Shown here: positions 1 through 62,056 of the stretch, piece by piece
Position numbering within the stretch: the first letter of the stretch is position 1
How the letters are laid out: each line of letters opens with the position of its first letter
Assembly: GCA_025354165.1 (NCBI GenBank)
Contig: JANXNI010000029.1
Location: 1-64,000 of the forward strand
Reading direction: 5' to 3'
DNA: 64,000 bases
Source: Burkholderiales bacterium
GTDB lineage: Bacteria > Pseudomonadota > Gammaproteobacteria > Burkholderiales > Casimicrobiaceae
Program-made: the position numbers and the translations under genes
Notes under the pieces: model-generated
What the model was told of the DNA's origin: nothing
Seen by the model: the letters and a program-made list of their open reading frames with translations, nothing else
Databases searched by the model: none

Positions 1-67
1 ATATATCGACTTTGTACGATACGTGCAAATACCACTCTAATTGCCTTGTTTTGGAGAGAAAGCTGTT
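1..67. repeat. Truncated copy of the ~118-bp palindromic repeat
   Basis: The window begins inside what looks like the right half of the dispersed palindrome described at 28137 and elsewhere. From TATCGACT (4-11) to AAAGCTG (61-67) it has the same length (62 bases) as the matching half of the copy at 28137-28252, but the inner TAGCCCC arm is degenerate. The left half would lie outside the window, so this is the weakest member. Confidence 0.45.
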
Positions 68-83
68 AACGCTATGGCGATAA

Positions 84-109
84 AAAAAGACACCCGAAAG
101 TGTCTTTTT
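84..109. terminator. Bidirectional intrinsic terminator after erpA
   Basis: A 10-bp stem AAAAAGACAC / GTGTCTTTTT closes a CCGAAA loop. A-rich and T-rich arms give a U-tract in either direction. It sits just downstream of erpA, which is read on the minus strand. Confidence 0.75.
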
Positions 110-137
110 GGTGCCAACACGGTGAAGCAGGCGCGGA

Positions 138-488
138 CTACGCGCTAAATGAGTTCCCGCATCCGCAGCTGGATGTTGCATTCGGGTTTTTGATCACGAA
201 TTGCGCGCCTTCGAGACCATCGCTGTAATCGATTTCTGCGCCCACAAGGTACTGATAGCTCATGGCATCGATCAGCAGCGTCACGTCGTTTTTCACCATT
301 TTGGTGTCGTCTTCGTTGACTTCTTCATCGAATGTGAAACCGTACTGAAAGCCCGAGCAGCCGCCACCGGTGACGAACACGCGCAGTTTGAGATTTGGAT
401 TCTGCTCGTCGATGATCAGATCTTTCACCTTGTTCGCGGCGGCGTCAGTGAAGTTGATCGGGGCGGGCAGTTCGGTCATTGCATTCAT
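138..488 (-). CDS. erpA: Iron-sulfur cluster insertion protein ErpA
   Basis: A-type carrier (HesB/IscA family) that passes Fe-S clusters to apo-enzymes, including those of isoprenoid synthesis. The 116-residue length is normal. The three cluster-binding cysteines are visible: Cys44 in GGGCSG, and Cys108 and Cys110 in the C-terminal SSCGCG. A GGAG ribosome-binding site precedes the ATG; Met4 is a possible second start. Its neighbour bactofilin is on the same strand, and the argC / DUF6776 / bactofilin / erpA order is common in betaproteobacteria. ErpA rather than IscA fits this solitary position, with no isc genes in view. Confidence 0.95.
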
Positions 489-585
489 GGGTACTCCTGT
501 TGAGCAGTCGTAATCGCTACTCAGATCCTATTATCAGGGCGCTCGGTCAGGAATTCAACCGCGCTCCTGACGTGGGATTGGTCAT

Positions 586-999
586 TTACTTGCTTTCGTT
601 GCCGATTCGTTTCAATTCGACCACGTCGGCTGTACCTTGCTGCACATGCAGCAGGCGTCCGTCGATGACTGCGCCGACCTGCATTTCGAGCGTGCGATAG
701 CTGACGTCGCCTGTAATGCGCGCATTCGGCAGCAGCTCAAGATATTCGGTTGCGTTGACTGGCCCGTTCACGGTGCCGTCGATCACGACGTGAGATACGC
801 GAATCTCGCCGCTGACGGTCGCTTTTTCGCTCACCACCAGCGTGGACGGAGCATCTGAGGCCGAATGAATGGAGCCCTTCACGACGCCGTCAATACGCAG
901 ACCACCCGTAAAGAGGATGTCGCCGCTGATGGTGGTCGAGGAGCCAATCAGGCTGTCGATCTGCTTTTGCGGGACGTGATTTTTTTTGCGACCGAACAT
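586..999 (-). CDS. Bactofilin (polymer-forming cytoskeletal protein)
   Basis: Small beta-helical protein that polymerises without nucleotide and scaffolds envelope processes in many bacteria. The protein starts MFGRKK and carries repeated short Gly/Val beta-rungs such as GDILFTGGLRIDGVVKGSI and TVSGEIRVSHVVIDGTVNGPV, typical of the bactofilin domain. I chose the ATG at 999 (137 aa) because CAGGAG lies 8 bases upstream; a longer frame begins at 1023. It follows the coiled-coil membrane protein by about 40 bases and probably shares its transcript. Confidence 0.92.
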   Translation of the reverse strand: MFGRKKNHVPQKQIDSLIGSSTTISGDILFTGGLRIDGVVKGSIHSASDAPSTLVVSEKATVSGEIRVSHVVIDGTVNGPVNATEYLELLPNARITGDVSYRTLEMQVGAVIDGRLLHVQQGTADVVELKRIGNESK

Positions 1000-1038
1000 C
1001 TCAAATAACTCCTGAAAAATCATGGCGCTTTCACGCCC

Positions 1039-1797
1039 TTACAACTGAAGCGATTGCTGCGTGCGAGGCTCTTTGCTGCCTGCAGGAATCACGCGCATTT
1101 GCAGCGTCTTCAACTGCGCATTGGCGGGCACTTTAAAAATTCCCTCCACGCGCTGATACGTCTTGAAATCCAACGCCAGCGAGGCTACCAGATCGGGTTG
1201 CTCGTCGGGCAAATTGATGTTGGTGCGTTTGCCATCCGTGATGATCGTCGCGATCAACGTGAGCCTGCCCTTGAACGGCGCATCGGCACTGCCCTGCACC
1301 ACCAATGCGCGGAAACGATAGCTGTCGACCGTTTCCCGTTCGGCCTGCATGCGTTGCACGGCGAGGCCGTTTTTACTGCCAGCGGCGCTGCCCACGAGCT
1401 TCTCGAAGAATGCGCTTTCTTCTTTGAGTTGCATGTTTTCCTGCTGCAAGGAAACAATTTGCTTCGACAATACATCCTTCGCACCCACCGCCATTTGCGC
1501 GCTGTTGGTCAGTTCAATGTTGCCCTGCTTTAGTCGCACATTGTCGGCACGCAACGCAATTACTTCGGTGTTCAGGCGCTCCTGCTCGTCGCGCACTTTG
1601 CCGATGTTGAATCCCGCAAAAATCCTACCCGCATCGAATCCGCCGTAAAAAAGGCCTGCGAATACGAGCACAGCGACACCGATGATCGTGCCTTTAACTT
1701 TCCACGACCAATGCGTGCGCACGGAAAGCTTCGGGGCAGAAATGCCAAAGCGTCGGCGCAGGCCGGAGATGATGCGATCAGAGCGGAGCAGAGCCAT
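1039..1797 (-). CDS. Membrane-anchored coiled-coil protein, DUF6776-like
   Basis: 252 aa. There is one transmembrane helix near residues 34-54 after a basic N-terminus, then a heptad-rich region (about 65-130, with LNTEVIALRADNVRLKQ and LQQENMQLKEE). The remaining C-terminal part is beta-rich (RALVVQGSADAPFKGRLTLI). No enzyme motif is visible. Its place between argC and bactofilin is conserved in related bacteria and suggests an envelope or cytoskeletal role, but that is inference. Confidence 0.8.
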   Translation of the reverse strand: MALLRSDRIISGLRRRFGISAPKLSVRTHWSWKVKGTIIGVAVLVFAGLFYGGFDAGRIFAGFNIGKVRDEQERLNTEVIALRADNVRLKQGNIELTNSAQMAVGAKDVLSKQIVSLQQENMQLKEESAFFEKLVGSAAGSKNGLAVQRMQAERETVDSYRFRALVVQGSADAPFKGRLTLIATIITDGKRTNINLPDEQPDLVASLALDFKTYQRVEGIFKVPANAQLKTLQMRVIPAGSKEPRTQQSLQL

Positions 1798-1819
1798 CAG
1801 CGGTCGTGGCGTCCGTCGC

Positions 1820-2881
1820 TTAAGGCGACAGCGGCATCGTTAACAAGCCCGCTGTTTCCGGCAAGCCGAACATCAAATTCATGCACTGAACCGCCGCGCC
1901 TGCCGAGCCTTTAACCAGATTGTCCTGCACCACCAGAACGACAATCGTGTCGCCACCCTGCGGGCGATGCAGCGCGATGCGCAGCATGTTGCTGCCGCGC
2001 GTCGAGCGGGTGTCGGGCATGCTTCCGAACGGCATCACATCGATGAAGGCTTCACCTTGATACGCATTGACAAACAACGCTTGCAACTCGTCGTTCGTCA
2101 TCGACAGGCCCTTGCCGGTGAGCGTTGCATAAAGAGTGGAATGCATGCCGCGAATCATTGGTGTCAGGTGCGGCGTGAAGATGAGACGCACCTTATCGGT
2201 CGTCATGTCCTGCAACCGCGCCTGAGTTTCCGGATGATGGCGATGACCGGACACGCCATAGGCCTTGAAGTTGTCGCCAGCTTCGGTGAACAGATAGTCC
2301 ATCTCGGCTTTTTTGCCCGCGCCGGACACACCGGACGCGCAATCGGCGATCAGATGGCCAGCATCAACGATGCCCGCCTTTAAGAGTGGGTAATAGCCCA
2401 ATTGCATCGTCGTTGGATAACAGCCGGGATTGCCGACGATTTGCGCCGATTTGATCGCGTCGCGATTCAATTCAACGAGGCCGTAAGCAGCTTTGGCAGC
2501 CAGATCGGGGCAGGTGTGTGGCAGCTTGTACCACTGCTCGAACACGGCCAAATCCTTGAAGCGGAAGTCGGCCGCGAGGTCAATAATTTTCACACCTGCC
2601 GCTGTGAGCTTCGGCGCATCAGTCATCGCAACGCCATGCGGTGTGGCGTAAAAAACGACGTCACACTGCGTCAGATCAGCCGTGGCCGTGTCGCTGAACA
2701 CGAGATCGCAGCGACCGCGCAAACTAGGGAACATCGCATCAAGGCGCGTACCAGCTTCCTTGCGCGAGGTGATCATTGTCAGTTTTGCGTTTGGATGGAG
2801 CGTGAGCATGCGCAAAAGCTCGACGCCGGTGTATCCGGTGCCGCCTACGATGCCCACTTTGACTGATTTTTCTGCGCTCAT
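1820..2881 (-). CDS. argC: N-acetyl-gamma-glutamyl-phosphate reductase
   Basis: Third step of arginine synthesis: NADPH-dependent reduction of N-acetylglutamyl phosphate to the semialdehyde. The N-terminal dinucleotide-binding motif [14 protein letters not shown] (residues 13-26) and the catalytic cysteine in GNPGCYPT are present. At 353 aa this is the long form of the family. The start has an upstream GAGGAA. Two other arginine genes, argA (31147) and an argD-like gene (34103), lie in the window but not in the same operon. Confidence 0.96.
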
Positions 2882-2944
2882 GGCACTGTTCCTCGGTTAG
2901 TTCTTGTCTCAGGTTAGCAACAAGATGGGACACGTATAAAGCAC

Positions 2945-2973
2945 AAAGGCCGCAGGGGTTGCCCGCAGCCTTT
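2945..2973 (-). terminator. Terminator-like hairpin after rplM-rpsI
   Basis: AAAGGC pairs with GCCTTT around an inner GC-rich stem. On the minus strand it is followed by a T-rich stretch. It lies about 50 bases beyond the rpsI stop and would end the ribosomal protein transcript. Confidence 0.6.
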
Positions 2974-3021
2974 GCTCGAATCGCTTGTGCGAACCTCCCG
3001 AAGGAGGTATTGCTCGTCGCC

Positions 3022-3414
3022 TTAGCGCTTCGAGAACTGCTTACGACGGCGAGCCTTGCGCAGACCGACTTTTTTCCGTTCGACTTCGCGTGCGTCGCGC
3101 GTTACGAGGCCAGCCTTCTTGAGGTCTGGCTTGTAGGCTGCATCGTATTCAATTAGAGCGCGTGTGATGCCGTGACGCACCGCACCGGCCTGGCCGGATT
3201 CGCCACCGCCAGCAACGCTCACCATGATGTCGAAGCTTTCGAGGTTGTTCGTAATCTGAAGCGGTTGACGCACAATCATGCGGCCGGTTTCGCGTGCGAA
3301 AAACTGATCAACAGGCTTGCCGTTAACCATGATTGCGCCCTTGCCAGCTTTCATGAACACACGAGCTACAGCGCTTTTGCGACGACCCGTACCGTAATTA
3401 AAAATACCAATCAT
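3022..3414 (-). CDS. rpsI: 30S ribosomal protein S9
   Basis: 130 aa. The N-terminal [14 protein letters not shown] and the very basic C-terminal tail ending RKQFSKR are diagnostic; the tail reaches the decoding site of the small subunit. It follows rplM by 23 bases, the usual rplM-rpsI operon. Confidence 0.98.
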
Positions 3415-3437
3415 TTTGGATAGTTCCTGGGTGCGGG

Positions 3438-3872
3438 TTATTTCGTGAGAATCAGGGTTTTCGGCTGTTGCGCAGCATGTGGATGCGCGTCACCGGTGTA
3501 GCACTTGAGCTTTTTGAGCATGGCGTAGCCGAGTGGGCCCTTTGGCAGCATGCCTTTGACAGCGTGCTTGAGCACACGATCAGGATATTTGTCTTGCAGT
3601 TTCTCGAAGTTGGTTTCCGAGATGCCGCCGGGGTAGCCCGAGTGACGGAAGTACGTCTTCTGGAAGGCTTTATTGCCGGTGACGCGGAGTTTTTCCACGT
3701 TGGTCACGATGACGAAATCGCCCGTGTCCATGTGCGGCGTGAAGATCGCCTTGTGTTTGCCGCGAAGGCGGGACGCGATTTGTGACGCGAGGCGACCGAG
3801 AATCTGGTCGGTGCCGTCTACCAGGATCCAGTCCTGTGTAATGTCAGACGGCTTTGCTGAAAAAGTTTTCAT
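3438..3872 (-). CDS. rplM: 50S ribosomal protein L13
   Basis: 144 aa, full length, with the conserved [16 protein letters not shown] and RHSGYPGG segments. It is the first gene of the rplM-rpsI operon. The roughly 200 bases upstream, as far as the small-RNA terminator at 4070, must hold its promoter and leader; I cannot point to a convincing -35/-10 pair there. Confidence 0.98.
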
Positions 3873-4067
3873 TGCTTGATACGCTCTAGACTCGTTTTGG
3901 TGTTTTGCAAAGGGCGGTGAGGGTTCGCTTGGAAAAGCAGACGCTCTGTCGCTCAGTGCGTTATGAGTTTTCTCGCCTTGGACACTACAGATGGCTGTAA
4001 AAATCCGAGGTAAGCCAGTAAGTATAGCTGCGATTGGCTATTTTATGAAGGAAATGGAACAGAAAGT

Positions 4068-4171
4068 GCAAAAGAAAACGGCAAGCCCGAGGGCCTGCCG
4101 TTAAAGATGTCCGTCCAAAGGAGGAGGAAGGGGGACATCAATCACCTGCTAAGGAGGAGGAAGCAGGCGAT
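4068..4171 (-). ncRNA. Candidate anti-Shine-Dalgarno small RNA with two CUCC loops
   Basis: Read on the minus strand, this about 100-base unit has two hairpins and a terminator. Hairpin one (4145-4167) is CCTGCT / AGCAGG with loop TCCTCCTCCTT. Hairpin two (4106-4139) is GATGTCC / GGACATC, enclosing CTTCCTCCTCC. Both loops expose CCUCCUCC, complementary to Shine-Dalgarno sequences. A consensus-like promoter lies just upstream and an intrinsic terminator just downstream. The layout matches the known class of proteobacterial CUCC-loop RNAs (the alphaproteobacterial CcsR/ar14 type and the toxic anti-SD RNAs described from betaproteobacteria). Family membership is inferred, not searched. Confidence 0.75.
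4070..4102 (-). terminator. Intrinsic terminator of the small RNA
   Basis: AACGGCA (4077-4083) pairs with TGCCGTT (4096-4102), with an inner CCC/GGG. On the minus strand it is followed by TTTTCTTTT. The orientation of the T-tract fixes the RNA on the minus strand. Confidence 0.8.
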
Positions 4172-4177
4172 GAATGA

Positions 4178-4206
4178 ATTTAAGCATGCTGCACTGCACA
4201 AGTCAA
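4178..4206 (-). promoter_or_regulatory. Sigma-70-like promoter of the small RNA
   Basis: On the minus strand, a -35 TTGACT (4206-4201), a spacer of exactly 17 bases and a -10 TTAAAT (4183-4178) preceded by TGC. Transcription would start near 4171, just before the first hairpin. Confidence 0.7.
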
Positions 4207-4280
4207 CGTGAAATGGTGCGCTGCGGCAATAATTCTCTAGAGATACAACTCTAGTTGTGGAACAACCAAGGATTACTCGT

Positions 4281-4697: not shown

Positions 4698-4737
4698 ATG
4701 GCGAGATCTGACTACTAGTTCCGCTGCGTCTGCCCGG

Positions 4738-5727: not shown

Positions 5728-5811
5728 TGTGAAGTTCCTCCTTGGTTTCCGAAATTATTTCCGTAACTTGTTTATGGGTGAGCAGTGCTTCGTTCGCGCT
5801 ACGGCAAAGCT

Positions 5812-10360: not shown

Positions 10361-10476
10361 CAGCTTTTTCATTAAATCACGCCGGCGTTGGGGCTGGATC
10401 AAATATTCGGCTAATGTCGATATATGGCCATTTGCACAGCAAGCCCAAATGCAGAGGCCAATTTAACAAAAAGCTA
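10361..10476. repeat. ~118-bp palindromic repeat, full copy
   Basis: Outer arms CAGCTTTTT (10361) and AAAAAGCT (to 10475), inner GGGGCT (10390-10395) and AAGCCC, centre TGTCGATATA. It lies 17 bases after the PNPOx-like stop and before the convergent WYL regulator. Confidence 0.8.
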
Positions 10477-19799: not shown

Positions 19800-19920
19800 A
19801 TCAACTTTTCGCGGAAAGGCCTTCTACTAAAGGGCTAGCACTGAAAATCGGCCTGAATCGACTTCATGCACAAATCGAGCGCTAGCCCAAACTCAGTGGT
19901 CATTTCAGTTTGAAGCTGAT
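19800..19920. repeat. ~118-bp palindromic repeat, full copy
   Basis: The 42-base left arm starting ATCAACTTTTC and the right arm ending GAAGCTGAT are imperfect inverted copies, both carrying GGGCTAGC / GCTAGCCC. The centre is GAATCGACTTC. It lies 20 bases after uvrA and before the convergent hsp20. Confidence 0.85.
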
Positions 19921-28136: not shown

Positions 28137-28252
28137 CAGCTTTCGTGTGAAAGCACGGCTGCTCAGGGGCTAGAGGCAGAAATTGTAAGATATCGACTAT
28201 TGTTGGAATTGGCGTTTAGCCCCTGTGCAATCGACGTTTATGGAAAAAGCTG
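28137..28252. repeat. ~118-bp palindromic repeat, full copy
   Basis: Left arm CAGCTTTCGTG...CAGGGGCTAGAG, right arm TTTAGCCCCTG...GGAAAAAGCTG, centre GATATCGACTATTG. It fills the gap between the membrane-protein gene and the convergent uvrD. Confidence 0.85.
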
Positions 28253-36879: not shown

Positions 36880-36998
36880 AATGACTTTTCGCTGAAAGCA
36901 CCGTTACACGAGGGAAGAATGCGATAATTGCTATAAGTCGACTATTCTGTAATTGCGCTTTAGCCCGCATTCAAAGGTCATTTCACGAAAAAGCCATT
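36880..36998. repeat. ~118-bp palindromic repeat, full copy
   Basis: Left arm AATGACTTTTCGCTGAAAG, right arm GGTCATTTCACGAAAAAGCC, inner TTTAGCCC, and the most symmetrical centre of all copies, AAGTCGACTATT. It lies between the DoxX gene and the glycine-zipper gene. Confidence 0.85.
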
Positions 36999-37549: not shown

Positions 37550-38389
37550 CTAGAGTGCAGCGATCCCGGCAGTGGGTTCGGTGACGGTGATGTCGGCAAT
37601 CCATCGGCCCTTTGCGGCGCGTGTCAGCCAATGGGAAAAATCAAACATGTCTTCTTGCGTCACGGCATCGAGTGCGTCGTTCAGACTCTTTCCGTCGCGA
37701 AGTGCGTGGGTAAATTGTGCTTCCGCAACCGGGAGCGTTGTCACGACCGCGCGAAAACCTTCGCGATAAATCCAAGCATTTTCGGCTTGATTTGCGCTCT
37801 CACCCTGTAACGCAGAGAAATCGTTCGTATGATGCGCATCGAAAATCGTCACGACAGGAAAGATCGATTCAATCAGTTCGGTGGCGGGCGCGAGGTTCAG
37901 ATGGATGTGCGCGGGATCGGTTGCGCTGAGGATGGCCCAGCGCGATCCGTCCATCAGTGACGAATCGATGCGGCGCTCAACGTGATGAACAGCCCAGTCA
38001 AGGCGCGCGACGTCGGCGAGAAACGGAACCGACAAAAGTGCTGGATCGCTTTGCGCCGCGATGAAAATGGGCAGCATTGCGCCGTAGTCACCGAGATCGC
38101 CTGAGGTCGGCGGATTTGCGCGCCAGAAGTGTTTAGCCAACGCTGAAAAACCGACGTCACCGAGCAGTGCGCTCACGATGGGAAATGCAGCACGCAATGC
38201 ACGATCCGCAATCGCCAAACCATTGCTGCGATAAATCTCCAAACCGCCGGGCGAGAGCGAATCGCGACCTCGTGCGTTCAACGTGGGCAATTGCGAAGCG
38301 GAGGCTGAACGGCTCCACAACGCAGACAAAAACTGTTGCTGCCTCGCGTGTTCGTCGATCACTGATGCTTGCGCTTTTAGATCAGGCAT
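37550..38389 (-). CDS. bufC: DUF2063 protein, BufC-type partner of the MNIO enzyme
   Basis: 279 aa. The N-terminal DUF2063 domain (about 20-110: RQQQFLSALWSRSASAS... LEIYRSNGLAIADRALRAAFPIVSALLGDVGFSALAKHFW) was once called putative DNA-binding, but in bufferin systems it pairs with the MNIO enzyme as a precursor-recognition partner. The ATG lies 8 bases inside the end of bufB, so the two are translationally coupled. Confidence 0.9.
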   Translation of the reverse strand: MPDLKAQASVIDEHARQQQFLSALWSRSASASQLPTLNARGRDSLSPGGLEIYRSNGLAIADRALRAAFPIVSALLGDVGFSALAKHFWRANPPTSGDLGDYGAMLPIFIAAQSDPALLSVPFLADVARLDWAVHHVERRIDSSLMDGSRWAILSATDPAHIHLNLAPATELIESIFPVVTIFDAHHTNDFSALQGESANQAENAWIYREGFRAVVTTLPVAEAQFTHALRDGKSLNDALDAVTQEDMFDFSHWLTRAAKGRWIADITVTEPTAGIAAL

Positions 38390-39272
38390 GTTCGAACTCG
38401 CGAACCGGCGTGAGCGCGTTGCGAACGACAGCGGTAGCAAGGGCTACTTCATCAAGCAAGGTGGTTAGAGGTGGCACATTCGTGTCCCACTCGATGCATG
38501 TCGGAATCGCGCCGAAGCACTTTACTGCGTGCGCATAAGCCGCCCAAACAGGCGCATGCACGCAGCTACCGTGATCGTCAATCACCCACTTCCCTGTCTC
38601 GCAATAACCCGCGAGATGCATCTCCGCAACGTGCCTCGGTGCGATTGCATCAAGCCACGCGCATGTTGCGGCGACGGGCGAAGCGTGCGTCTGCGCATCA
38701 TTGAGCGCATTGACCATCACGTTATTCACGTCCACCAGAAGCTTGCAACCGGTGTGTTCGCAGAGCAAATTCAGGAACTCAGGTTCGGTGAAGGTGCTGT
38801 CCGTCCAGCGAACATAGCTCGAAATGTTTTCAATCAAAATCGGACGTTGCAAACGATGCTGCACGCGATCAATATTGTTTGAAAAAATATCCAGGCTCTG
38901 CTGTGTGAAGGCAGGCGGCAGCAAGTCACTACCGTGAATCACGTCATCACTCGTCAGCGGCGCACGGGCAAAGCAGAGATGATCACTGACGCGAACTGGC
39001 TCAATGTCGTTCGCGAGTGTTACCAGCGAATCGAGATGCCGTTCATCGATACCGACTGCCGAACCAAGCGCGAGACCGACGCCATGCAGACTGATCGGAT
39101 AGTGCTCGCGCGCATTGCGCAGCACTTGTTGGGCAGCGCCTCCAGGTGCGAAAAAATTCTCGCTGTGGACTTCGAGAAACGCCAGCGCAGGATGTTCAGC
39201 AATCACTTGCGCGTAGTGCGGCTGGCGATAACCAATGCCGACTACCCACTGATTTTCTGCGTGCAATGACAT
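38382..39272 (-). CDS. bufB: MNIO/DUF692 iron enzyme, BufB type
   Basis: 296 aa TIM barrel. Multinuclear non-haem iron enzymes modify cysteines of precursor peptides to heterocycles. The expected metal and active-site segments are all visible: SLHGVGLALGS, SDHLCF, IENISSY, DVNNV, EMHLAGY, IDDHGSCVHAPVW and IEWDTNVP. It lies 40 bases after bufA1 and overlaps bufC, giving bufA-B-C-D order. Confidence 0.93.
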   Translation of the reverse strand: MSLHAENQWVVGIGYRQPHYAQVIAEHPALAFLEVHSENFFAPGGAAQQVLRNAREHYPISLHGVGLALGSAVGIDERHLDSLVTLANDIEPVRVSDHLCFARAPLTSDDVIHGSDLLPPAFTQQSLDIFSNNIDRVQHRLQRPILIENISSYVRWTDSTFTEPEFLNLLCEHTGCKLLVDVNNVMVNALNDAQTHASPVAATCAWLDAIAPRHVAEMHLAGYCETGKWVIDDHGSCVHAPVWAAYAHAVKCFGAIPTCIEWDTNVPPLTTLLDEVALATAVVRNALTPVREFEHA

Positions 39273-39312
39273 GGTTTACCGCGCTGGCTAAGAATGGCTT
39301 TGGACGTGCGAC

Positions 39313-39600
39313 TTACTTCTTCTTTTTCGTCGCTTCGAACATCGCCTTCGCCTCGGCGAGCGTCAAACCCTTCATGTCTTTGCAAGTGCCCTTGGCGACA
39401 TATTTCCATTCGCCCGCGTTGTCGGACAGCGTCGACAGACCTGCACAAACGTGAGTGTCAGCGAGATTGGCGCAATCGTTCTGGCCCGCTTTGGTGATAC
39501 CAAAGCATTTCTCTTTTCCAGAATCCTGTGCGATTGCAGCGCCCTGGCTCATTGCGAGGACGGCGGTGAGAGCAGAGGCGACAAGTGCGCGTTTATCCAT
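39313..39600 (-). CDS. bufA1: BufA1-type bufferin precursor peptide (DUF2282)
   Basis: 95 aa with a signal peptide (about 25 residues, ending AIAQ). The mature part has four cysteines (32, 43, 52, 73) in KCFGITKAGQNDC, HVC and GTCKD, the DUF2282 pattern of periplasmic copper-buffering bufferins; the MNIO enzyme is expected to convert some into heterocycles. The Lys-rich end (ATKKKK) is typical. The 302 bases between this start and the next gene upstream hold a candidate ECF promoter at 39664. Confidence 0.9.
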   Translation of the reverse strand: MDKRALVASALTAVLAMSQGAAIAQDSGKEKCFGITKAGQNDCANLADTHVCAGLSTLSDNAGEWKYVAKGTCKDMKGLTLAEAKAMFEATKKKK

Positions 39601-39663
39601 GATCTAAAACTCCAAATTGATATTGACTGAATCGCCTGGAAGTGCGTGAAAGGCGACATGAGC

Positions 39664-39691
39664 TTGTCGTTTTTCTTGCGCAAGACCTTAC
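39664..39691 (-). promoter_or_regulatory. Candidate ECF-type promoter before bufA1
   Basis: Minus strand: GTAAGG (39691-39686), 16 bases, CGACAA (39669-39664). A matching GTAAGG with a GACA element stands before the other precursor gene (42960-42987). Bufferin operons elsewhere are controlled by ECF sigma factors; the assignment here is inference. Confidence 0.4.
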
Positions 39692-39902
39692 GCTTTTTTT
39701 GCCAGCAAGTTGGAACTGTCCTTCGCTGGACGAGGTCCGGTGCGACACGCGCGTAGAACGCCGTGGCTCGGCAGTTGCTAAGCAACAGCGACTATTTCTC
39801 GCCGACTGAACATAACAATCCTGCGGCGGCGCTCTACTGTCGCAGGTGCGCCGTGAGATCGCGAACATCGGGTCACATTTGATTGAGCGCTGGAATACCG
39901 CG

Positions 39903-40802
39903 CTATGGGCTGAGCAAGCGCGCCACCTTTAAGAAAATACGACGATCAAACAACAGACTCAAGTGCCCAATGCCGCACCACTCGTCGGGTGATAGCGCTT
40001 GGGAGCGGGCTCGCTCGTAGGGCACCACCAGATTGTCGTGCACGCTGTAGACCGACACGGCTGGTACGGGACAGGTTGTAGGCAGTTGCCGCAACCAGTC
40101 TGATCCGGGACGCATTTGCCGGAGGTTGGTCCCAGGCAGACACCACGCGGACAGACTGCCGCCGTGCGGTGAACCCAGCGTGACCAGCTGCGTCGTTGGG
40201 GCATCGCCAGGCCGAACCTGAACGCGCGCGAGATAGGCGCGGCAGACCAGCCCACCCATGCTGTGCCCGATCAGGGCGATGCTGCTGGCACCACGTAGCG
40301 TGAGCATGCTCACTCGCTGCTGCACCTGTGCCACATAGTCGTCCATATCACCGAAAAGCGGGGTCAGTTCGAGGCTATCCACATGTCGGCCGGTTCGCCG
40401 GAGGCGATGTGCAAACAGCCACCAGATTCCGCGATTGCTGAACAAACCATGTACGAGCAGGACGACCGGCTGCCCCTTGACGCTTTTGCGACCTAGCCTT
40501 GGTGCCAACAGCCAGGTGAGCGGAATGCAGAACGAAAACGCGAACATCGTAGCCGCGTATTCGGCTCCGATGGTTGTCAACCACTTAATCATTGATTGCG
40601 ACGGTCGACTCCGATTGTTGAGTCCGGCGAAAATGAAGCTCGCAACGACAACCAGCAGGCGCACCAGCAGCAGGTAGACGATGACATAGATCGAAAATTC
40701 ACCCGCATGGTGCATCATCTGGTCGCCATACATGTGCATGCCCATCGTGGCACACAGACCGAACTCGATGACCAACAACGCGATCAGCAGGCCCGCTAGC
40801 AT
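39903..40802 (-). CDS. Membrane-anchored alpha/beta hydrolase (lipase-like)
   Basis: 299 aa. Two or three N-terminal helices (VMLAGLLIALLVIEFGLC, FSIYVIVYLLLVRLLVVVASFIF) precede a hydrolase domain with the oxyanion HG in VVLLVHGLFSNRG and the nucleophile elbow GHSMGG. A late Asp (VYSVHDNLV) and His (GIGHLSLL) complete a triad. The ATG overlaps the stop of the MNIO fusion gene (TGATG), so it is translated with it. Not a usual bufferin gene. Confidence 0.88.
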   Translation of the reverse strand: MLAGLLIALLVIEFGLCATMGMHMYGDQMMHHAGEFSIYVIVYLLLVRLLVVVASFIFAGLNNRSRPSQSMIKWLTTIGAEYAATMFAFSFCIPLTWLLAPRLGRKSVKGQPVVLLVHGLFSNRGIWWLFAHRLRRTGRHVDSLELTPLFGDMDDYVAQVQQRVSMLTLRGASSIALIGHSMGGLVCRAYLARVQVRPGDAPTTQLVTLGSPHGGSLSAWCLPGTNLRQMRPGSDWLRQLPTTCPVPAVSVYSVHDNLVVPYERARSQALSPDEWCGIGHLSLLFDRRIFLKVARLLSP

Positions 40803-42511
40803 CACGCGATTGCCACGGTCAGGCGTTCGGGTAGCAGCGTCACCAGAAATCCGTCTTCCCACCATTCGCCCAACCAGCGTGCGAGCGTCATCGGATCGGC
40901 CAGATGTTCGGTGCCTTCGAGCGCACCCGCGACGTCGGCGATGGAGTAACCCTGCATCATCATGCGGATGAAAACGGCCTCACCGCCTTCAAGCGTTTTG
41001 AAATGCGGCTGCAATCCTTTGCGCCATACCGCCAGCGTCACCGACGCGGGCAGACGTACTGCCTGGGGCACGTCGGTATCTGCATCAATCGCGCGCCACA
41101 ATGCCACGGTATTGGTGCTGATTTCCCTCAGTACGAGGCTTGGGTGTAGTGCATCGCTGCGCGACATCCAGCGACGTTCTGCGTCGGCAGCGACACCTGC
41201 GACATCGAGCGAGGCCACGTCCGGACCGTCGAAGCAGGCGCGCAAATCCCAGTCGAGCTGCGCGAGCTGCATAAGTTCTGGATGATCGGGATAGACGCGA
41301 TTCAGATACGCGGCGAAACCCGCGCCATATCGGTTCAGGCTGCGCGTGAACGGCGGGTGATCCACGGCGAAGTCGCGCGCATGTTGATCAAACACGTCGG
41401 AGCCCATGTAGAGCGTCGTCTTCGCGTAGGTATCGGCGAGCACTTCGGCGAGCCGCGCGCGGTACGCGTTTTTATAGATGCCGACGCGCTGATTGACGTC
41501 AACGTTCGCGGGAGTTCGTAGCTGTGCCGTCATGTCATCGTCGGATCGTGCCAGCACGTAGTCCGCGAGCTGCCGTTGTGTGTCGTGCAGTGTTTGTGTT
41601 GATGTACCGGTTTGCGCGACATACTCGGTATGAGCGATAAATCGACCTTCGGAAAATTCATCGAGTGCCGACAAAACTTCAGCGGCAACACTTCGCGCCG
41701 TCGCAACTTCCGCAAGCAATTCCGAAAGTGCAGGAATATTGTCATCCCGCTCAATCATCGCAGGCACCGAGCCGAACAGTCGACACGCATCGCGATACAG
41801 CGACCACACGGCAGGTGCAACCGGATGATCATGCGTATCGACGATGTGATCGCCGTTGTCCGAGTGGCCAGCAAGGTGAATTTGCTGAATGCGATTTGCG
41901 GGCAAACCTGAGAGGTAATACAGCGGATCAAACCCGTGATTGACACTGCTCACATAGACATTGTTGACGTCAAGCAACAACAGGCAATCCGCCTCGTTGG
42001 CGATGTGACTCAGGAACTGCCATTCACTCGACGCCGAATGTTTGTAGTCGATATAGCTCGACACATTTTCAATGACAAATCGCCGCTGCAAAACGTCTTG
42101 AATGCGGCGAATCTGCGCAATCACATGTCGTGCGGCTTCGTCGGTGTAGGGCAAGGGATAGAGATCATGCAATTGCTCAGGCCCGGGGCCACCGATCCAG
42201 CATAGATGATCGGAAATCCACATCGGTTCGATGCGATCCGCCAGCGCTTTTACGCGCTTTAGATACGCCTCGTCAATGCCGGATACCGCGCCGATCGACA
42301 TCGCGACGCCGTGCATCACCGTCGGATAGTCGGCTCGAATTTGATCCAACAGAACGAGCGGTTTTCCGCCCTCTACCAGATAGTTGTCAGTGATGATTTC
42401 CAGCCAGTCAACGGCCTGCGGCTCGCGCAAGAAATCTTGATAGTGCTGCGTGCGCAAACCAATGCCGAATCCAGCATGGGTTTGCGTCGCACGGTGTTGT
42501 GTGTCGTGCAT
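40802..42511 (-). CDS. MNIO (DUF692) - DUF2063 fusion, BufB-BufC in one chain
   Basis: 569 aa. Residues about 10-280 are an MNIO barrel with MHGVAMSIGA, SDHLCW, ENVSSY, DVNNV, HLAGHSDNGDHIVDTHDHPV and IERDDNIP. After a short linker, residues about 305-569 form a DUF2063/BufC-like part (TQRQLADYVLARSDDD... NQRVGIYKNAYRARLAEVLADTYAKTTLYMG). The start at 42511 is chosen by alignment to the barrel; no strong ribosome-binding site is seen, and in-frame codons continue to 42628. It lies 80 bases after the second precursor gene. Confidence 0.9.
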   Translation of the reverse strand: MHDTQHRATQTHAGFGIGLRTQHYQDFLREPQAVDWLEIITDNYLVEGGKPLVLLDQIRADYPTVMHGVAMSIGAVSGIDEAYLKRVKALADRIEPMWISDHLCWIGGPGPEQLHDLYPLPYTDEAARHVIAQIRRIQDVLQRRFVIENVSSYIDYKHSASSEWQFLSHIANEADCLLLLDVNNVYVSSVNHGFDPLYYLSGLPANRIQQIHLAGHSDNGDHIVDTHDHPVAPAVWSLYRDACRLFGSVPAMIERDDNIPALSELLAEVATARSVAAEVLSALDEFSEGRFIAHTEYVAQTGTSTQTLHDTQRQLADYVLARSDDDMTAQLRTPANVDVNQRVGIYKNAYRARLAEVLADTYAKTTLYMGSDVFDQHARDFAVDHPPFTRSLNRYGAGFAAYLNRVYPDHPELMQLAQLDWDLRACFDGPDVASLDVAGVAADAERRWMSRSDALHPSLVLREISTNTVALWRAIDADTDVPQAVRLPASVTLAVWRKGLQPHFKTLEGGEAVFIRMMMQGYSIADVAGALEGTEHLADPMTLARWLGEWWEDGFLVTLLPERLTVAIA

Positions 42512-42591
42512 ATGTGGATTGCCGACGCGCGCCCCCGGAGGATTCGGAGGAGAGGAGCGCACGTCGGCAAATCGTAAAAGCGGACCGTCGA

Positions 42592-42879
42592 CTACAGATC
42601 GCCGATAGTGCCTTTGCTGCTCAGGCATTCAGCAGCAGCGGTCGCTTTGAAACCCTGGCCTTTGCACGAGTTTTGACCTTTGCAGCTGTGCTCGGCGGTT
42701 TTGCAATCAGCGGTGCCTTTGCAGCTGTTTACGTTGTAGCAATGCACCGTGTCGTTGGCTGCGATGGCTTTACCAGCGGCACCTTTTGGTGCGTCAGCGG
42801 CGAATGCCGAGGCCGCGAGCGCTAGCGTGGCTGCAGCCAAGGCGAAAGAAGTAGCGGACTTGATTTGGGAAGAGATCAT
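42592..42879 (-). CDS. bufA2: BufA2-type bufferin precursor peptide
   Basis: 95 aa with a signal peptide (to about residue 28, SAFA). Six cysteines (47, 53, 59, 66, 72, 85) occur at regular six- to seven-residue steps in [23 protein letters not shown] and EC. The NSCKGQ repeats are typical of the BufA2 family of periplasmic metallophores. It should be the substrate of the adjacent MNIO fusion enzyme. Confidence 0.9.
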
Positions 42880-46056: not shown

Positions 46057-46176
46057 ATCAGCTTTTTAATGAAACTACCATTGCATGGGGGCAAAAGCGC
46101 TATTTTCCTTTAAGTCGATAAGTATCATAAACACGATTTAGCCCATATGTAATGGTCGATCTGGAAAAATGTTGTT
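46057..46176. repeat. ~118-bp palindromic repeat, full copy
   Basis: Left arm ATCAGCTTTTTAATGAAAC with GCATGGGGGC; right arm TTTAGCCCATATG with AATGGTC; centre TAAGTCGATAAG. It occupies most of the divergent gap between dnaG and the beta-helix gene. Confidence 0.8.
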
Positions 46177-48316: not shown

Positions 48317-48432
48317 CAGCTTTTCGATGAAATGACTTTGGCATGGGGGCTGAGGCGCTATTTACCGTAAAGTCGATATCAGCTAAAAAGTCTACTCAGC
48401 CTCTGTAGAATCGGGAGAACAGCCATAAGCTG
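48317..48432. repeat. ~118-bp palindromic repeat, full copy
   Basis: Left arm CAGCTTTTCGATGAAATGAC with GCATGGGGGCTGA; right arm TCAGCCTCTG ... CATAAGCTG; centre AAGTCGATATC. The right arm is the more diverged. It lies after the dockerin-like gene. Confidence 0.8.
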
Positions 48433-53135: not shown

Positions 53136-53252
53136 TTAGCTTTTACCTGAAATAACCGCTGCATAGGGGCCGGCGTCGCATTACGTCAATAGTCGAGTAT
53201 CTGCCAAATATAGGCTTAGCCCCGATGCAGTGGTCGTTGTGGCAAAAAGCTG
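53136..53252. repeat. ~118-bp palindromic repeat, full copy
   Basis: Left arm TTAGCTTTTACCTGAAATAAC with TGCATAGGGGC; right arm CTTAGCCCCGATGCAGTGG with GGCAAAAAGCTG; centre AATAGTCGAGTATC. The inner arms are among the best preserved. It is the main content of the 319-base gap before the dioxygenase gene. Confidence 0.85.
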
Positions 53253-55046: not shown

Positions 55047-55096
55047 GGGGCGTGAGTTCGATGTAGTGGGTTGTAGTCAGAGTTATGACCCTGATT

Positions 55097-56356: not shown

Positions 56357-56365
56357 CGCAAACCG

Positions 56366-57280: not shown

Positions 57281-58026
57281 AGCTGGATCAGGCGATTCAC
57301 GAACGCCTTCGCTTTGTCACTCAAGCCAGCGCGAATCGGAAGTTCGGCCTTGATCTCAACCGGTTTTCGCGGAGAGAGGTACGCGTTGGTCGGCTTGTAG
57401 CCCAAGTCGTCAAGCATCGATTGTTTGCCCCGTGACTCGGCCAGTAGCGACACTTTCGATTGTGGATCATCATAGTCGCCGAAATGTCGTGCATGCGTCG
57501 GGCACGCAAGCACACAGGCCGGTTGGCGATCTTCAACGGCGAGTTGTTCGTCGTAAATGCGGTCAACGCAGAGCGTGCATTTCTTCATCACGCCGACGTC
57601 CTCGTCGAGCTCACGTGCTCCGTATGGACACGCCCATGAGCAATAGTTGCAACCCATGCAACGGCTCGGATCGACCAGCACGATGCCGTCCTCCGCGCGC
57701 TTATAGCTTGCACCGGTCGGGCACACCGTCACGCAGTGCGCTTCCTCGCAGTGCATGCAACTCATAGGTACGTTGACGGTTTTCGAGAGCGGCTGATGCT
57801 CGCTCGCGTCCGACGACGAACCACAACGATACGGCGAGTATGTCGGGTCACCCTCGATCTCGTAATGGCGAATGCGGTTGTACCAGGCGCCGCTTGGGGC
57901 CTTGCCCCACGCGTCGTAGTCTGGCGCGCCGCCCATCAGTGACTGGCCGTTCCATTCTTTGCAGGCGACGGCGCAGGCGTGGCAGCCGACGCAGGTGTCG
58001 AGGTCGATGGCGAGGCCGAGTCTCAT
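57277..58026 (-). CDS. soeB: Four-cluster ferredoxin-like subunit, probable SoeB
   Basis: 249 aa. Four sets of cysteines are visible: CVGCHACAVACKEWN, CMHCEEAHCVTVCPTGA, CMGCNYCSWACPYGARE and CTLCVDRI with CVLACPTHAR, enough for four [4Fe-4S] clusters. No Tat signal. It overlaps soeA and soeC by four bases each, a tightly coupled operon. Confidence 0.92.
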   Translation of the reverse strand: MRLGLAIDLDTCVGCHACAVACKEWNGQSLMGGAPDYDAWGKAPSGAWYNRIRHYEIEGDPTYSPYRCGSSSDASEHQPLSKTVNVPMSCMHCEEAHCVTVCPTGASYKRAEDGIVLVDPSRCMGCNYCSWACPYGARELDEDVGVMKKCTLCVDRIYDEQLAVEDRQPACVLACPTHARHFGDYDDPQSKVSLLAESRGKQSMLDDLGYKPTNAYLSPRKPVEIKAELPIRAGLSDKAKAFVNRLIQL

Positions 58027-60878
58027 TGTCCGAACTCCAGTTTCGGCCAGACACCCGTTTCATCGGCCTTGCCAATGCGCACGCGCAGGTCATACCACGC
58101 GGCTTGCCCGGTGATTGGATCGCTGTTGGAGAAACGCTCGCCACTCTTGGCGCGCGTGCTCTCGGAAATCAGGTGATTTAGCAGGAAGCCGACGGTCGCT
58201 TCGGACGCGTTTTTTTCAAGCCCCCAGGCCTCGCTCATCTTGCCGATCGCATTCCATGTCCACACGGTATTGGCCTCAACGCCTTCCATTGTTTTCATCT
58301 GGCAACGAATCTTTCCATTCGGTGACTCAACCCATACCCAGTCGAGGTCATTGAGTCCCAGCTCGCGGGCTTTGCTGGTTGCGACGTACAAATAGTTCTG
58401 CGAAATAATTTGCCGAAGCCACGCGTTTTGTGAGTCCCAAGAGTGATACATCATCATGGGGCGTTGGGTGATGGCGTGCAGCGGAAAGCTGTCGTCATCG
58501 CTTTCGTCCGTTGATGGATACCACGCGGGCATTGGGTCGAAATATTCTGCCAGTCGAGCTTTGTCGACTTCACGCGTGGGCAATGGCCCGTCATACAAAC
58601 CTCGCCCGGCCAAGCGAAACTTTTGCAGCGGCTCCGAGTAGAGCTGCGCGATGATCGGATCGGGTTTCGGGATGAACGCGGCATCCGCGGCCGCATGCAA
58701 ATAATCGCGATTGACGCCGCGCATCCACCGTTGATTTTCCGGCCAGTGATGGGCGAAAAAACTCTCGGCTTTGATGTAGTCCTGCCACTGATTCGGATTG
58801 GGCTCACCGCGCAGCGATTTCTCGCCATCTTTGCCGCGAAATCCACCGAGGAAACCAATGCCCGGTGCGCGCTCGTAATTGACGATGAAGTCGGTGTAGC
58901 CGGCAAATTTCTTCTCGCCATCGGGTTTAACGAAAGCGGGGAATTTAAGCCGCGTGGCCAGATCAACCAGCACGTCTTGCCACGGTCGGACATCGCGATC
59001 CAGCGGCAGAATCGGATGACGAATTGCGTCTGCTGCTGCGTCGGGTTCACTAATTGGGCGGTCGAGGAAACTGATGGCGTCGTAGCGTTCGAGATAGGTC
59101 GTATCTGGCAGCACGAGATCGGCGAATCGAACCATCTCGGAATCAAACGCATCGGCCACCACGAGAAACGGAATCTTGTGATTACCGGCTTCGTCCTTTG
59201 CCTTGAGCATGCCTTGCGTTTCCGCCGTGTTCATCGCGCTGTTCCACGCCATGTTGGCCATGAACAGAATCAGCGTGTCGATTTCGTACGGGTCGCCTTC
59301 AACGGCGTTCTTGATCACGGCGTGCATCATGCCGTGCGACGCGAGTGGCGCTTCCCACGAATACGCTTTGTCGAGCCGCAGCGCGTTGCCGTGGGCGTCT
59401 AGCGCCAACTCTTCGGGGCGCGTTGGGAAACCGAGCGGGGTCTTCGATAACGCCGTGTTCGGCGCGTTGATCAAACCGGCATCGTTCTCGGGCAATTGCG
59501 CAGGCGGAATCGGGCGCGGGAACGGCGCTTTGCTGCGGAAATTGCCGGGACCATCGAGCGCACCGATCAGCATCTGGATCAGGTGTAGCGAGCGACAGGT
59601 CTGAAAGCCGTTGGCATGCGCGCTGATGCCACGCATTGCGTAGAACGCGACCGGGCGGCCCACGACTTTGTCGTGCACGTTGCCGTAAATGTCCGTCCAC
59701 TCGCACGGGAGTTCGATGGTTTCTTTGAAGGCGACTTGCGCAATCTCGGCGGCGATGCGACGAATTTGTTCAGCGGAGACGCCGCAGCGAGAGGCTACGG
59801 ATTCGGGCGCGTAATCTTTACTGGTGTAGCGCTCGGCAATCAGCGAAAAAACCGTGCGAACGGCTTGTGTTGCGTCTGCTTGGCCGGGCACGCGAGCTGC
59901 ACCGCTCCACACCAACGCGGGCGCAACGCCCTTTTCCATGCGCATCGGTGACTGCGAATTTTGATCCCACACCAGCGGCTTGCCTTCGGCGTCGCGCAGA
60001 AACAATCCGTCCTGCGATGTCCCCGGCGCGTCGATGACCAGCCACGGCGAGTTGGTGTAACGCGTCAGATACTCTTGATCAATCCAGTCGTTGTTCAACA
60101 GTTCATGAACGATAGCAAGTGCAAGCAGGCCATCCGTGCCCGGGCGAATCGGCACCCATTCATCCGCAATCGCGCTATAGCCCGTGCGCACTGGATTTAC
60201 CGAGACAAACTTGGCACCGCGCGACTTGAGTTTGTCGAGACCGATCTTGATCGGGTTGCTGGAGTGATCTTCGGCTACGCCCCAGAGCACAAAATATTTC
60301 GCACGATCCCAGTCCGGCGCACCAAATTCCCAAAACGAATAGCCTATGGAATAAAGCCCCGCCGCAGCCATGTTTACGGAGCAAAACCCGCCGTGCGCAG
60401 CCCAGTTTGGCGTACCAAATTGTTGCGCCCACAAACCGGTGAGCGCCTGCATCTGGTCGCGACCGGTGAAGAAAGCGAGCTTCTTAGGATCAGTGGCGCG
60501 AATGTGCGCGAGGCGTTTGGTCAATAGGTCGAGCGCGTCATCCCACGAAATCGGATCGTAGACGCCTTCGCCGCGTTCGGTGCCCGGTCGGCGAATCATG
60601 GGATGTTGCAGCTTCGCTTTCGAATACTGCTTCATGATGCCTGCGCTGCCCTTGGCGCAGAGCACGCCCTGATTCACGATGTGATTGCGATTGCCCTGAA
60701 TGAAGCGGACGTGTGGCTTCCCGTCCTTTTCTTCCGTTGTGACGTTAATGCCGCAACGGCACGCGCACATGTAGCAGGTGGTGTGATGCACCGTCTGAAG
60801 GCTTCGGTCTTCAAACAGGGTGGGTCGTTCGCCTGCGGGCGTCAATGGGGTCGTAGTCGAGCGTGAGGAAGGAGGCAA
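58023..60878 (-). CDS. soeA: Molybdopterin oxidoreductase, probable sulfite dehydrogenase SoeA
   Basis: 951 aa complex-iron-sulfur molybdoenzyme. The N-terminal [4Fe-4S] cysteines are Cys35, Cys38, Cys42 (CYMCACRC) and Cys74. FCSVNMAAAG is at the position of a cysteine Mo ligand. Length, absence of a Tat signal and the A-B-C order with a DmsC anchor match the cytoplasm-facing SoeABC that oxidises sulfite to sulfate. Polysulfide, thiosulfate or tetrathionate reductases are alternatives, but those are normally exported. Confidence 0.83.
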   Translation of the reverse strand: MPPSSRSTTTPLTPAGERPTLFEDRSLQTVHHTTCYMCACRCGINVTTEEKDGKPHVRFIQGNRNHIVNQGVLCAKGSAGIMKQYSKAKLQHPMIRRPGTERGEGVYDPISWDDALDLLTKRLAHIRATDPKKLAFFTGRDQMQALTGLWAQQFGTPNWAAHGGFCSVNMAAAGLYSIGYSFWEFGAPDWDRAKYFVLWGVAEDHSSNPIKIGLDKLKSRGAKFVSVNPVRTGYSAIADEWVPIRPGTDGLLALAIVHELLNNDWIDQEYLTRYTNSPWLVIDAPGTSQDGLFLRDAEGKPLVWDQNSQSPMRMEKGVAPALVWSGAARVPGQADATQAVRTVFSLIAERYTSKDYAPESVASRCGVSAEQIRRIAAEIAQVAFKETIELPCEWTDIYGNVHDKVVGRPVAFYAMRGISAHANGFQTCRSLHLIQMLIGALDGPGNFRSKAPFPRPIPPAQLPENDAGLINAPNTALSKTPLGFPTRPEELALDAHGNALRLDKAYSWEAPLASHGMMHAVIKNAVEGDPYEIDTLILFMANMAWNSAMNTAETQGMLKAKDEAGNHKIPFLVVADAFDSEMVRFADLVLPDTTYLERYDAISFLDRPISEPDAAADAIRHPILPLDRDVRPWQDVLVDLATRLKFPAFVKPDGEKKFAGYTDFIVNYERAPGIGFLGGFRGKDGEKSLRGEPNPNQWQDYIKAESFFAHHWPENQRWMRGVNRDYLHAAADAAFIPKPDPIIAQLYSEPLQKFRLAGRGLYDGPLPTREVDKARLAEYFDPMPAWYPSTDESDDDSFPLHAITQRPMMMYHSWDSQNAWLRQIISQNYLYVATSKARELGLNDLDWVWVESPNGKIRCQMKTMEGVEANTVWTWNAIGKMSEAWGLEKNASEATVGFLLNHLISESTRAKSGERFSNSDPITGQAAWYDLRVRIGKADETGVWPKLEFGQ

Positions 60879-60937
60879 AGTGAGGGGCGTGGATTAGCGC
60901 CTGTTGCAGTGCAGGAAATGCCCGCGTATTTTGCCTG

Positions 60938-60953
60938 ACTCATACATATGAGT
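60938..60953. promoter_or_regulatory. Palindrome ACTCATA-CA-TATGAGT upstream of soeA
   Basis: Perfect 7-bp arms separated by two bases, 60 bases before the soeA start, flanked by TGCC/GGCA. The symmetry and position fit an operator. The regulator is unknown. Confidence 0.45.
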
Positions 60954-60966
60954 TGGCAGGTATGCG

Positions 60967-60997
60967 GCATTTATGAAACCCTGAGTTTCATAAATGC
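60967..60997. terminator. 13-bp perfect hairpin between the SIMPL gene and soeA
   Basis: GCATTTATGAAAC / GTTTCATAAATGC with a 5-base loop. It may end the SIMPL gene transcript, which comes from this side, or be a second operator. It has no T-run. Confidence 0.45.
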
Positions 60998-61025
60998 ATG
61001 TCCAGGCCACGAAATTTAGCGTTGA

Positions 61026-61754
61026 CTATTGCGCCATCAGAATTGACCCGTTTACTGTCAATGTCAGCGTCACTTTGCCGCCTTCGATGGCCATCGGCTC
61101 GGCGTCAGCAGCGGGGGCCGCCGCTCCGCGCATCGCGAACACTTTCGGCTGGATCGGGCGGGCTTCTCCGGTGATGCTGCCGAGATTGACTTCGCGCAGC
61201 GTGTATTGGCTGAACCCGAACGCACGGCTGGCGGTTTGTGCTTTGCTGCGGAACGCTGCAATACCGCGCTCGATCAGCGACTGTTCTTCGCGCTCGCGCA
61301 ACTCGCGTGACAGCTCGAAGCCGGAGCCAGCGATCATGAGTTTTTGCTGCGCCAGTTTGCCCGCAAGCGTTCCGAGCACCGCGAAATCTTTGCCTTTCAA
61401 AATCAATTCCGCGCGCACGGTCCAGCCGTCACGAACACCTTTGCTGTTCCAGCGCTGGCTGGTTGCGAACCCACCGGTGCGCGCTTCCACGCCCGGAGTG
61501 CCCTTCGCCTGCGCGAGCGCGGCGTTGATGATTTGTTGAACTTCGCGGGTGATCGGTGCGGCGTCGACGCCTTGTGCTTCGGCAGCGAGAGTGATGACGG
61601 CGAGATCAGGGATGACTTCCGTAGACGCCGTCGCGTCGAGTGTCAGCGCGTTGCGTACGGGTGCACTTGCGGGCATGATGTTTTCTGCAGACACACTTTG
61701 GGTCGCGAGCAAAAGCGTTAGCGGAACTACGATGAGGGTAAGGGCTTTATTCAT
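61026..61754 (-). CDS. Periplasmic SIMPL-domain protein
   Basis: 242 aa with a signal peptide (about 24 residues, ending SVSAE). The SIMPL/DUF541 pattern is visible: LDATASTEVIPDLAVITLAAEAQG, TGGFATSQRWNSKGVRDGWTVRAELILKGKD, and a C-terminal VTLTLTVNGS strand. Function uncertain (oxidative stress or outer-membrane roles reported for the family). The start at 61754 is chosen for the signal peptide. Confidence 0.9.
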   Translation of the reverse strand: MNKALTLIVVPLTLLLATQSVSAENIMPASAPVRNALTLDATASTEVIPDLAVITLAAEAQGVDAAPITREVQQIINAALAQAKGTPGVEARTGGFATSQRWNSKGVRDGWTVRAELILKGKDFAVLGTLAGKLAQQKLMIAGSGFELSRELREREEQSLIERGIAAFRSKAQTASRAFGFSQYTLREVNLGSITGEARPIQPKVFAMRGAAAPAADAEPMAIEGGKVTLTLTVNGSILMAQ

Positions 61755-61936
61755 AAAAAAACCTAGAGGAGATTGACTGGATTGTTGCGCATGCAGCGTT
61801 TTGCAACGCATCTTTCTATTGAAACGGTGCCGCCACGCAACCGGGGTTAAGCCGACTGTCAATTCTCGAATTTCCTCCAAATCGGGGTCATTCCCGGCAC
61901 CGCCAAAACAGCGTCTCACCGATGAGTTTTCTGACT

Positions 61937-62056
61937 AACAGCTTATTGCTGAAATGACGCATTAATAGGGGCTGAACCCCGATTATGCCAATTATCAACT
62001 ATTAGATAAATTGGCCGCTAGCCCTTATGCAAATGTAATTACATGAAAAAGCTGTT
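61937..62056. repeat. ~118-bp palindromic repeat, full copy with best outer arms
   Basis: AACAGCTTATTGCTGAAATG (61937) faces GAAAAAGCTGTT (ending 62056), with inner AGGGGCT and CTAGCCCTTATGC and centre TTATCAACTATT. It lies in the 589-base gap between the SIMPL and DUF4331 genes. The remaining 280 bases downstream must hold the DUF4331 promoter; I see no gene there. Confidence 0.85.

Follow-up and report, generated by a model that had tools for sequence, protein, structure and literature searches.

A genus-restricted family of palindromic intergenic sites in betaproteobacteria, read as candidate two-fold symmetric DNA sites

We describe a family of imperfect palindromes, most of them 116–118 bp long, dispersed between the genes of a Burkholderiales bacterium of the Casimicrobiaceae (genome G000; assembly GCA_025354165.1). 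The family was first noticed from the letters alone in the window, a stretch of 64,000 nucleotides at the start of contig JANXNI010000029.1 (contig C4 below). It is genome-wide, with about one copy per 10–12 kb, and among the genomes scanned it is restricted to one genus of betaproteobacteria. Comparison of 12 orthologous pairs, pooled, indicates that purifying selection acts on the copies where they stand; the two-fold symmetry is a property of the consensus, from which each arm overall departs independently of the other. On these sequence comparisons we judge it an even call that each copy is a two-fold DNA site (~58 + 58 bp) read as double-stranded DNA by a putative sequence-specific nucleoprotein complex, probably with a chromosome-organising role.

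Copy number, taxonomic range and consensus

A symmetric position matrix located 42 sites, eight of them the full-length window copies, in 458 kb of G000 (the whole of contig C4 plus C72:80001-340000). Only one other place scored above 5 bits (10.5), and six column-permuted matrices peaked at -24 bits over the same sequence, from which a profile hidden Markov model returned 45 sites including partial ones, while a covariance model gave 43, of which two are weak. The original prediction had named a genome-wide search beforehand as a test that could refute it, and these 42 sites in 458 kb include the further copies that the search found; a search of the whole G000 genome gave at least 75 sites from 1270 first-look candidates. 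Copy density in G000 is one per 10.2 kb; in G001 it is one per 10.6 kb, and the first stretch taken from G005 has one per 10.5 kb. These densities are biased upward by the choice of the stretches for matches, contig continuation or orthologs. A further 400 kb of G005, picked regardless of matches, held 33 sites, of which 27 are full-length, and the 600 kb of G005 searched in all gave 52 matches against none on a reversed decoy. One of the four unselected blocks (C1:2200001-2300000) holds five copies per 100 kb, compared with 7, 10 and 11 in the other three. Extrapolation would give ~460 copies in G000, a figure that is biased upward, and ~370 in G005.

Two models were used to follow the family across genomes. 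The first, R1, is a covariance model built from the eight window copies and their reverse complements; it scores those copies at 70–88 bits on both strands, with the next-best place in the window at 13 bits (E ~1), and since it contains the window copies its independent test is sequence outside the window. The second, R2, is a sequence-only model that was trained on 118-bp copies from more than one species, several in all. R1 matched 16 of the 17 genomes of the genus, G000 included, and none of 23 others; R2 likewise matched 16 of 17, and none of the 47 further genomes of the family. R2 was also run on 200 genomes drawn across the order, with individual entries listed for 25 of them; the five that matched all belong to this genus and the remaining 195 gave no match. 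These scans cover the best candidates only in each genome (150, 92, 57 or 18, depending on the scan), with strict filters above 40 genomes, so that weak matches may be lost, and several of the genomes are fragmented assemblies. The window itself falls among betaproteobacteria by its DnaG relatives, the genus may be Casimicrobium or one close to it, and G004 shares 8,000 identical bases with the record JACMNN010000155 (Burkholderiales bacterium isolate LF-bin-172). One copy (61939–62054) gave no blastn match at E 0.01 in 20,395 E. coli records, nor in plasmids or phages, and no account of a family like this was found in literature whose coverage excluded subscription papers and preprints.

Each G000 half-site runs, from the outside inwards, through CAGCTTTT, TGAAA, C, T..A, GGGGCTA and an A/T block to the centre, GTC|GAC. 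Positions conserved at 90–97% (the central TC/GA, one A of AAA, GGG and CTT) adjoin others with almost no preference in the G000 matrix, and the whole site carries ~84 bits of information. In a second species, G007, the consensus of each half holds about GCCC.ATTTAATTGGGC. Length is narrowly set: of the 43 R1 matches in the 458 kb of G000, 35 measure exactly 116 bp and the others 115–119 bp. Model matches in 200 kb of G005 measure 118 bp (nine), 117 bp (seven) or 116 bp (one), and all six G005 orthologs that were aligned with G000 copies are 118 bp. The G007 copies (118 bp in 27, 117 bp in two) and the G014 copies (116 bp in eight, 117 bp in five, 118 bp in two) were extended to the model ends, so their lengths lean towards the model. 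Half-sites would thus be 58 or 59 bp, with a preferred half-length that shifts between species. An internal pseudo-symmetry of the half-site was seen by eye; a score gave it no support, and we make no claim for it.

Divergence, spacing and placement of the copies

The 42 G000 copies share a mean identity of 54%, with a maximum of 68%. Across the 40 weakest positions the most similar of the 861 pairs reaches 0.575, compared with 0.571 in column shuffles; no pair shows excess similarity, and there are therefore no subfamilies. Six orthologous G000-G001 pairs are 41, 57 and 83% identical at low-, mid- and high-information positions, and six G000-G005 pairs 40, 47 and 73%, the corresponding values for G000 paralogs being 31, 43 and 73%. 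Because neutral copies would decay alike at strong and weak positions, the retention of the strong positions and loss of the weak ones in orthologs speaks for purifying selection in place. The G001 pairs are the stronger evidence, as they align without gaps and two of them lie within continuous alignment blocks.

By midpoint, all 113 classifiable copies (80 from a multi-genome list and 33 from the unselected G005 sequence) lie between called genes, and two more lie at contig ends without a flanking gene; genes were called with a simple caller of our own, some copies overlap a gene end by 2–15 bp and one partial site does so by more. The multi-genome list comprises 44 tandem, 21 convergent and 15 divergent gaps and the unselected G005 sequence 21, 8 and 4, with a slight preference for convergent gaps (odds ratio 1.86, p 0.011). 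Over 76 intervals the coefficient of variation of the spacing is 0.59 against 0.92 for random gaps, none of 2000 simulations being as low, and three spacings fall below 3 kb where 17.5 are expected, the smallest being 1.6 kb; the site list behind these intervals was compiled by hand from several searches and includes partial sites. The unselected 400 kb of G005 gives a coefficient of 0.48 against 0.94 for uniform placement (none of 5000 as low) and no spacing below 3 kb, with 7.0 expected.

Copies are also kept in place between species. Among 12 G000 copies over ~83 kb, seven, one of them partial, have a copy in the same G005 gap, where 1.6 are expected (p 4e-5). Of ten G000 copies examined against G001, six have orthologs, one is matched by a copy upstream of dnaG whose neighbour gene differs, and three have none; G001 in turn holds at least one copy that G000 does not. 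A copy found only in G000 (at 138702) and one found only in G005 lie ~1.2 kb apart in the aligned maps. Two decayed relics, at C4:159400 in G000 and C1:3060528 in G005, apparently correspond, the left half being readable in the first and the right half in the second. Downstream of uvrA in G012 and G005, the gap that holds a copy in G000 contains, by eye, unrelated short GC-rich palindromes (L172 and L173).

In the window itself, all eight full copies that had been claimed from the sequence were recovered, at 115–117 bp; the R1 core boundaries coincide with those first given for three copies and are off by up to 2 bp at either end for five. The outer arm, the inner arm and the TCGA centre all fit the original description. 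A truncated copy had been placed at 1–67: a cut copy is there, its exact extent being a right half of 58 bp at 8–65, and it is cut by the contig end because the window starts at base 1 of contig C4. The copies had further been described as often lying between convergent genes, which fits three of the eight; three others lie in tandem and two in divergent gaps. They are listed here by window position, with no strand assigned.

1 to 65: right half-copy (58 bp, 8–65, plus 7 bp); half-site score 13.2, ranking ninth among right halves when the + strand of the window is scanned
10361 to 10476: full copy, 116 bp; convergent gap between PNPOx-like and WYL regulator genes
19802 to 19918: full copy, 117 bp; convergent gap between uvrA and hsp20; G001 ortholog present
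28137 to 28252: full copy, 116 bp; convergent gap, 38 bp past the uvrD stop codon; G001 has no copy after uvrD
36882 to 36996: full copy, 115 bp; tandem gap
46059 to 46174: full copy, 116 bp; divergent gap upstream of dnaG; in G001, too, a copy lies upstream of dnaG, with a different neighbour gene
48317 to 48432: full copy, 116 bp; tandem gap; G001 lacks a copy at the equivalent position
53137 to 53252: full copy, 116 bp; tandem gap; G001 ortholog present
61939 to 62054: full copy, 116 bp; divergent gap; G001 ortholog present

Separately from the palindromes, window positions 37550–42628 contain two genes of the MbnB/TglH/ChrH family of enzymes for ribosomally synthesised and post-translationally modified peptides (RiPPs), at 38382–39272 and 40802–42628. 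One adjoins a DUF2063 gene (37550–38290) and the other is fused to DUF2063, and a small DUF2282 protein is encoded in the same stretch (39313–39600); these genes possibly form two RiPP-type clusters.

What the site may be

Binding sites were among the roles first proposed for the palindromes, and this is the only one of those listed to survive. Each half of a copy would be contacted by a candidate protein complex, the whole forming one two-fold symmetric site on double-stranded DNA, and the half-length of 58 or 59 bp may reflect the geometry of that complex. A chromosome-scale role is favoured over local regulation because the copies are evenly spaced and show little regard for gene orientation; the job could be that of a loop anchor, a supercoil-domain barrier or a nucleoid peg. 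We put forward more tentatively a specific version, in which a genus-specific complex would sit on hundreds of 116–118 bp dyads about every 10 kb and split the chromosome into near-equal loops or supercoil domains, the length of the site (116 bp in G000, 118 bp in the six aligned G005 orthologs) shifting with the protein. An alternation of A/T and G/C about the centre, with a period of 9.4–9.6 bp (column-permutation p 0.0005–0.0075), would suggest wrapping.

Several observations weigh against this interpretation. Under a stricter block permutation the periodicity gives p values of 0.011, 0.15, 0.053 and 0.0003 in four species, significant in two only, which leaves it suggestive. Single copies are dispensable, as five of the 12 G000 copies are missing in G005 and three of the ten examined are missing in G001; two of these three lie beside changed neighbours. 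At strong positions the G005 orthologs (73%) are no closer than paralogs (73%), and their alignments are gapped, which raises identity at weak positions, so that these pairs rest on synteny. One genome of the genus, G016, gave no match in the scans and another, G009, has about 7–10 sites only; the two are sisters in a UvrA tree (support 99/97), in which G016 has a very long branch and from which G006 was left out, and they fall outside the other 14 genomes included, a grouping of modest support (81/80). One G001 copy (L162:13910-14186) is broken up close to the middle by ~158 bp of inserted sequence, which by eye resembles a miniature inverted-repeat element of a different kind. An information content of 84 bits would far exceed what positioning alone needs. 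Finally, the even spacing has other possible sources: redundant neighbours may simply have been lost, which could be enough by itself, or an old mobile element may have shown target immunity.

The original prediction had also suggested a non-autonomous mobile element. As a description of present behaviour this is not supported: the 42 copies reach no more than 68% identity and form no subfamilies, there is no clear target-site duplication, and orthologs keep the conserved positions. A recent miniature inverted-repeat transposable element (MITE) is rejected on the same grounds of ortholog conservation, want of end duplication and want of subfamilies. A mobile origin of the family is possible, and an ERIC-like MITE that spread early in the genus and left copies that are now old seems to us rather unlikely. 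The copies are dispersed, intergenic and palindromic, like ERIC in the accessible text of PMC2229807 and PMC10969869; the same gap may hold a copy or not depending on the species, as after uvrA and upstream of dnaG; and target immunity could give even spacing. Copies are absent at some orthologous gaps, where the flanks are too diverged for an empty-site comparison to reveal an insertion junction. Directly at the ends of the 42 G000 copies, tests for duplications of 2–9 bases gave z from -0.7 to 1.9, and three shifted offsets reach z 2.0–2.2 among 32 tests; the bases next to the ends are preferentially A,A or A/T and not TA. Against an old MITE stand the near-random state of weak positions beside others conserved at 90–97%, the high-information positions kept in orthologs, the lack of subfamilies among 861 pairs, z of at most 1.9 at the ends themselves and the scarcity of relics, where neutral copies would be expected to decay evenly.

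We consider it improbable that the copies are strong sites for gyrase, the type II topoisomerase, with DNA wrapped about a central 4-bp cleavage site as at the phage Mu strong gyrase site (SGS) or BIME-2. Gyrase is near-universal, whereas among the genomes scanned the site is confined to one genus. The size and symmetry of the copies do come near the 130-bp two-fold symmetric E. coli gyrase motif, with its phased G/C variation and central 4-bp cut, as far as it is set out in the accessible part of PMC6379681, and both the A/T-G/C alternation about the centre and the mild excess of convergent gaps (odds ratio 1.86, p 0.011) would agree with it. That motif is described there, however, as degenerate and probably read indirectly, whereas the present sites are strongly base-specific at 84 bits, and their period is 9.4–9.6 rather than 10.75 and weak under the stricter null.

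An RNA hairpin acting as terminator, mRNA stabiliser or processing site, likewise among the first proposals, is very unlikely and was rejected overall after tests with the eight window copies, the 42 G000 copies and four species sets. The eight window copies are predicted to fold at -20 to -45 kcal/mol, with one long hairpin in several cases, and in the 21 tandem gaps of the unselected G005 sequence the median distance is 25 bp to the upstream stop and 75 bp to the downstream start. Yet Watson-Crick pairing between the arms equals the shuffled expectation: 51.6 against 51.5% in G000 (n=42, z=0.25), 42.7 against 43.9% in G007 (n=27, z=-1.27) and, in two small sets, 52.7 against 51.5% in G005 (n=9, z=0.86) and 66.4 against 65.5% in G014 (n=8, z=0.65). 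Symmetry without overall covariation speaks against an RNA hairpin, although individual columns, few in number, rise above z 2 in every set (two in G000, four in G007, where column 4 is highest at 4.7, three in G005 and one in G014). At weak positions of G000 the arms within a copy are alike at 0.358 and those of different copies at 0.332, a difference given without a significance test. Two top matches of the paired model (L023 and L027) have arms that look near-identical by eye; the model rewards pairing. In addition, 19 of the 113 copies lie between divergent genes, an Rfam scan of the window found no family at the gathering threshold, and the one match from a permissive scan over four loci was sub-threshold and fell outside the element.

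Operators of one global transcription regulator are scarcely probable: the G007 half element GCCC.ATTTAATTGGGC looks, in our reading of the consensus, like the operator of a helix-turn-helix dimer, but promoters are not favoured (21 + 8 convergent, 15 + 4 divergent and 44 + 21 tandem gaps) and even spacing is unexpected for a regulon.

Known repeats and what the family may mean

The preferred reading, a two-fold site bound by a putative nucleoprotein complex, can be set beside several known systems. The original comparison with ERIC stands as far as architecture goes: ERIC, IRU and RU-1 of enterobacteria are ~120-bp imperfect palindromes, dispersed, mostly intergenic and of variable copy number (from the accessible portions of PMC2229807 and PMC10969869). 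It also stands in its remark that the sequence does not look like ERIC, as one copy finds no blastn match among the E. coli records; the family differs further in lacking a clear target-site duplication or TA ends, and in that its copies are under selection and evenly spaced. With REP and BIME elements, including the BIME-2 gyrase sites, it shares hundreds of intergenic palindromic copies. REPs are given as 20–40 bp in the abstract of PMC3733652, and in place of short clustered stem-loops we see a single 115–119-bp dyad, unclustered (smallest spacing 1.6 kb) and without overall arm covariation. CIR, as presented in the consulted section of PMC2229807, is likewise an intergenic family of ~110 bp kept between related species, but it has GANTC sites and two RNA arms with a linker, in contrast to one dyad centred on TCGA; read by eye, the G000 consensus contains no conserved GANTC (CcrM) site, its centre being GTCGAC. 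The nearest mechanistic analogy may be the gyrase motif (PMC6379681, PMC12393610) and the nearest functional one BIMEs, for which the available text of PMC6907758 mentions a proposal as topological barriers.

Mobile elements and RNA hairpins are the usual descriptions of dispersed palindromes in bacteria. For this family the comparative evidence favours another picture, of DNA sites in their hundreds that are evenly spaced and under selection. An E. coli nucleoid review (PMC6907758) counts the nature of the barriers to supercoiling diffusion among its open questions. If a genus-specific complex does divide the chromosome at these dyads, they would be domain barriers that are defined by sequence and can be counted, whereas in E. 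coli the nature of such barriers is unsettled, and a genus with such a site about every 10 kb would make the supercoil-barrier question testable.

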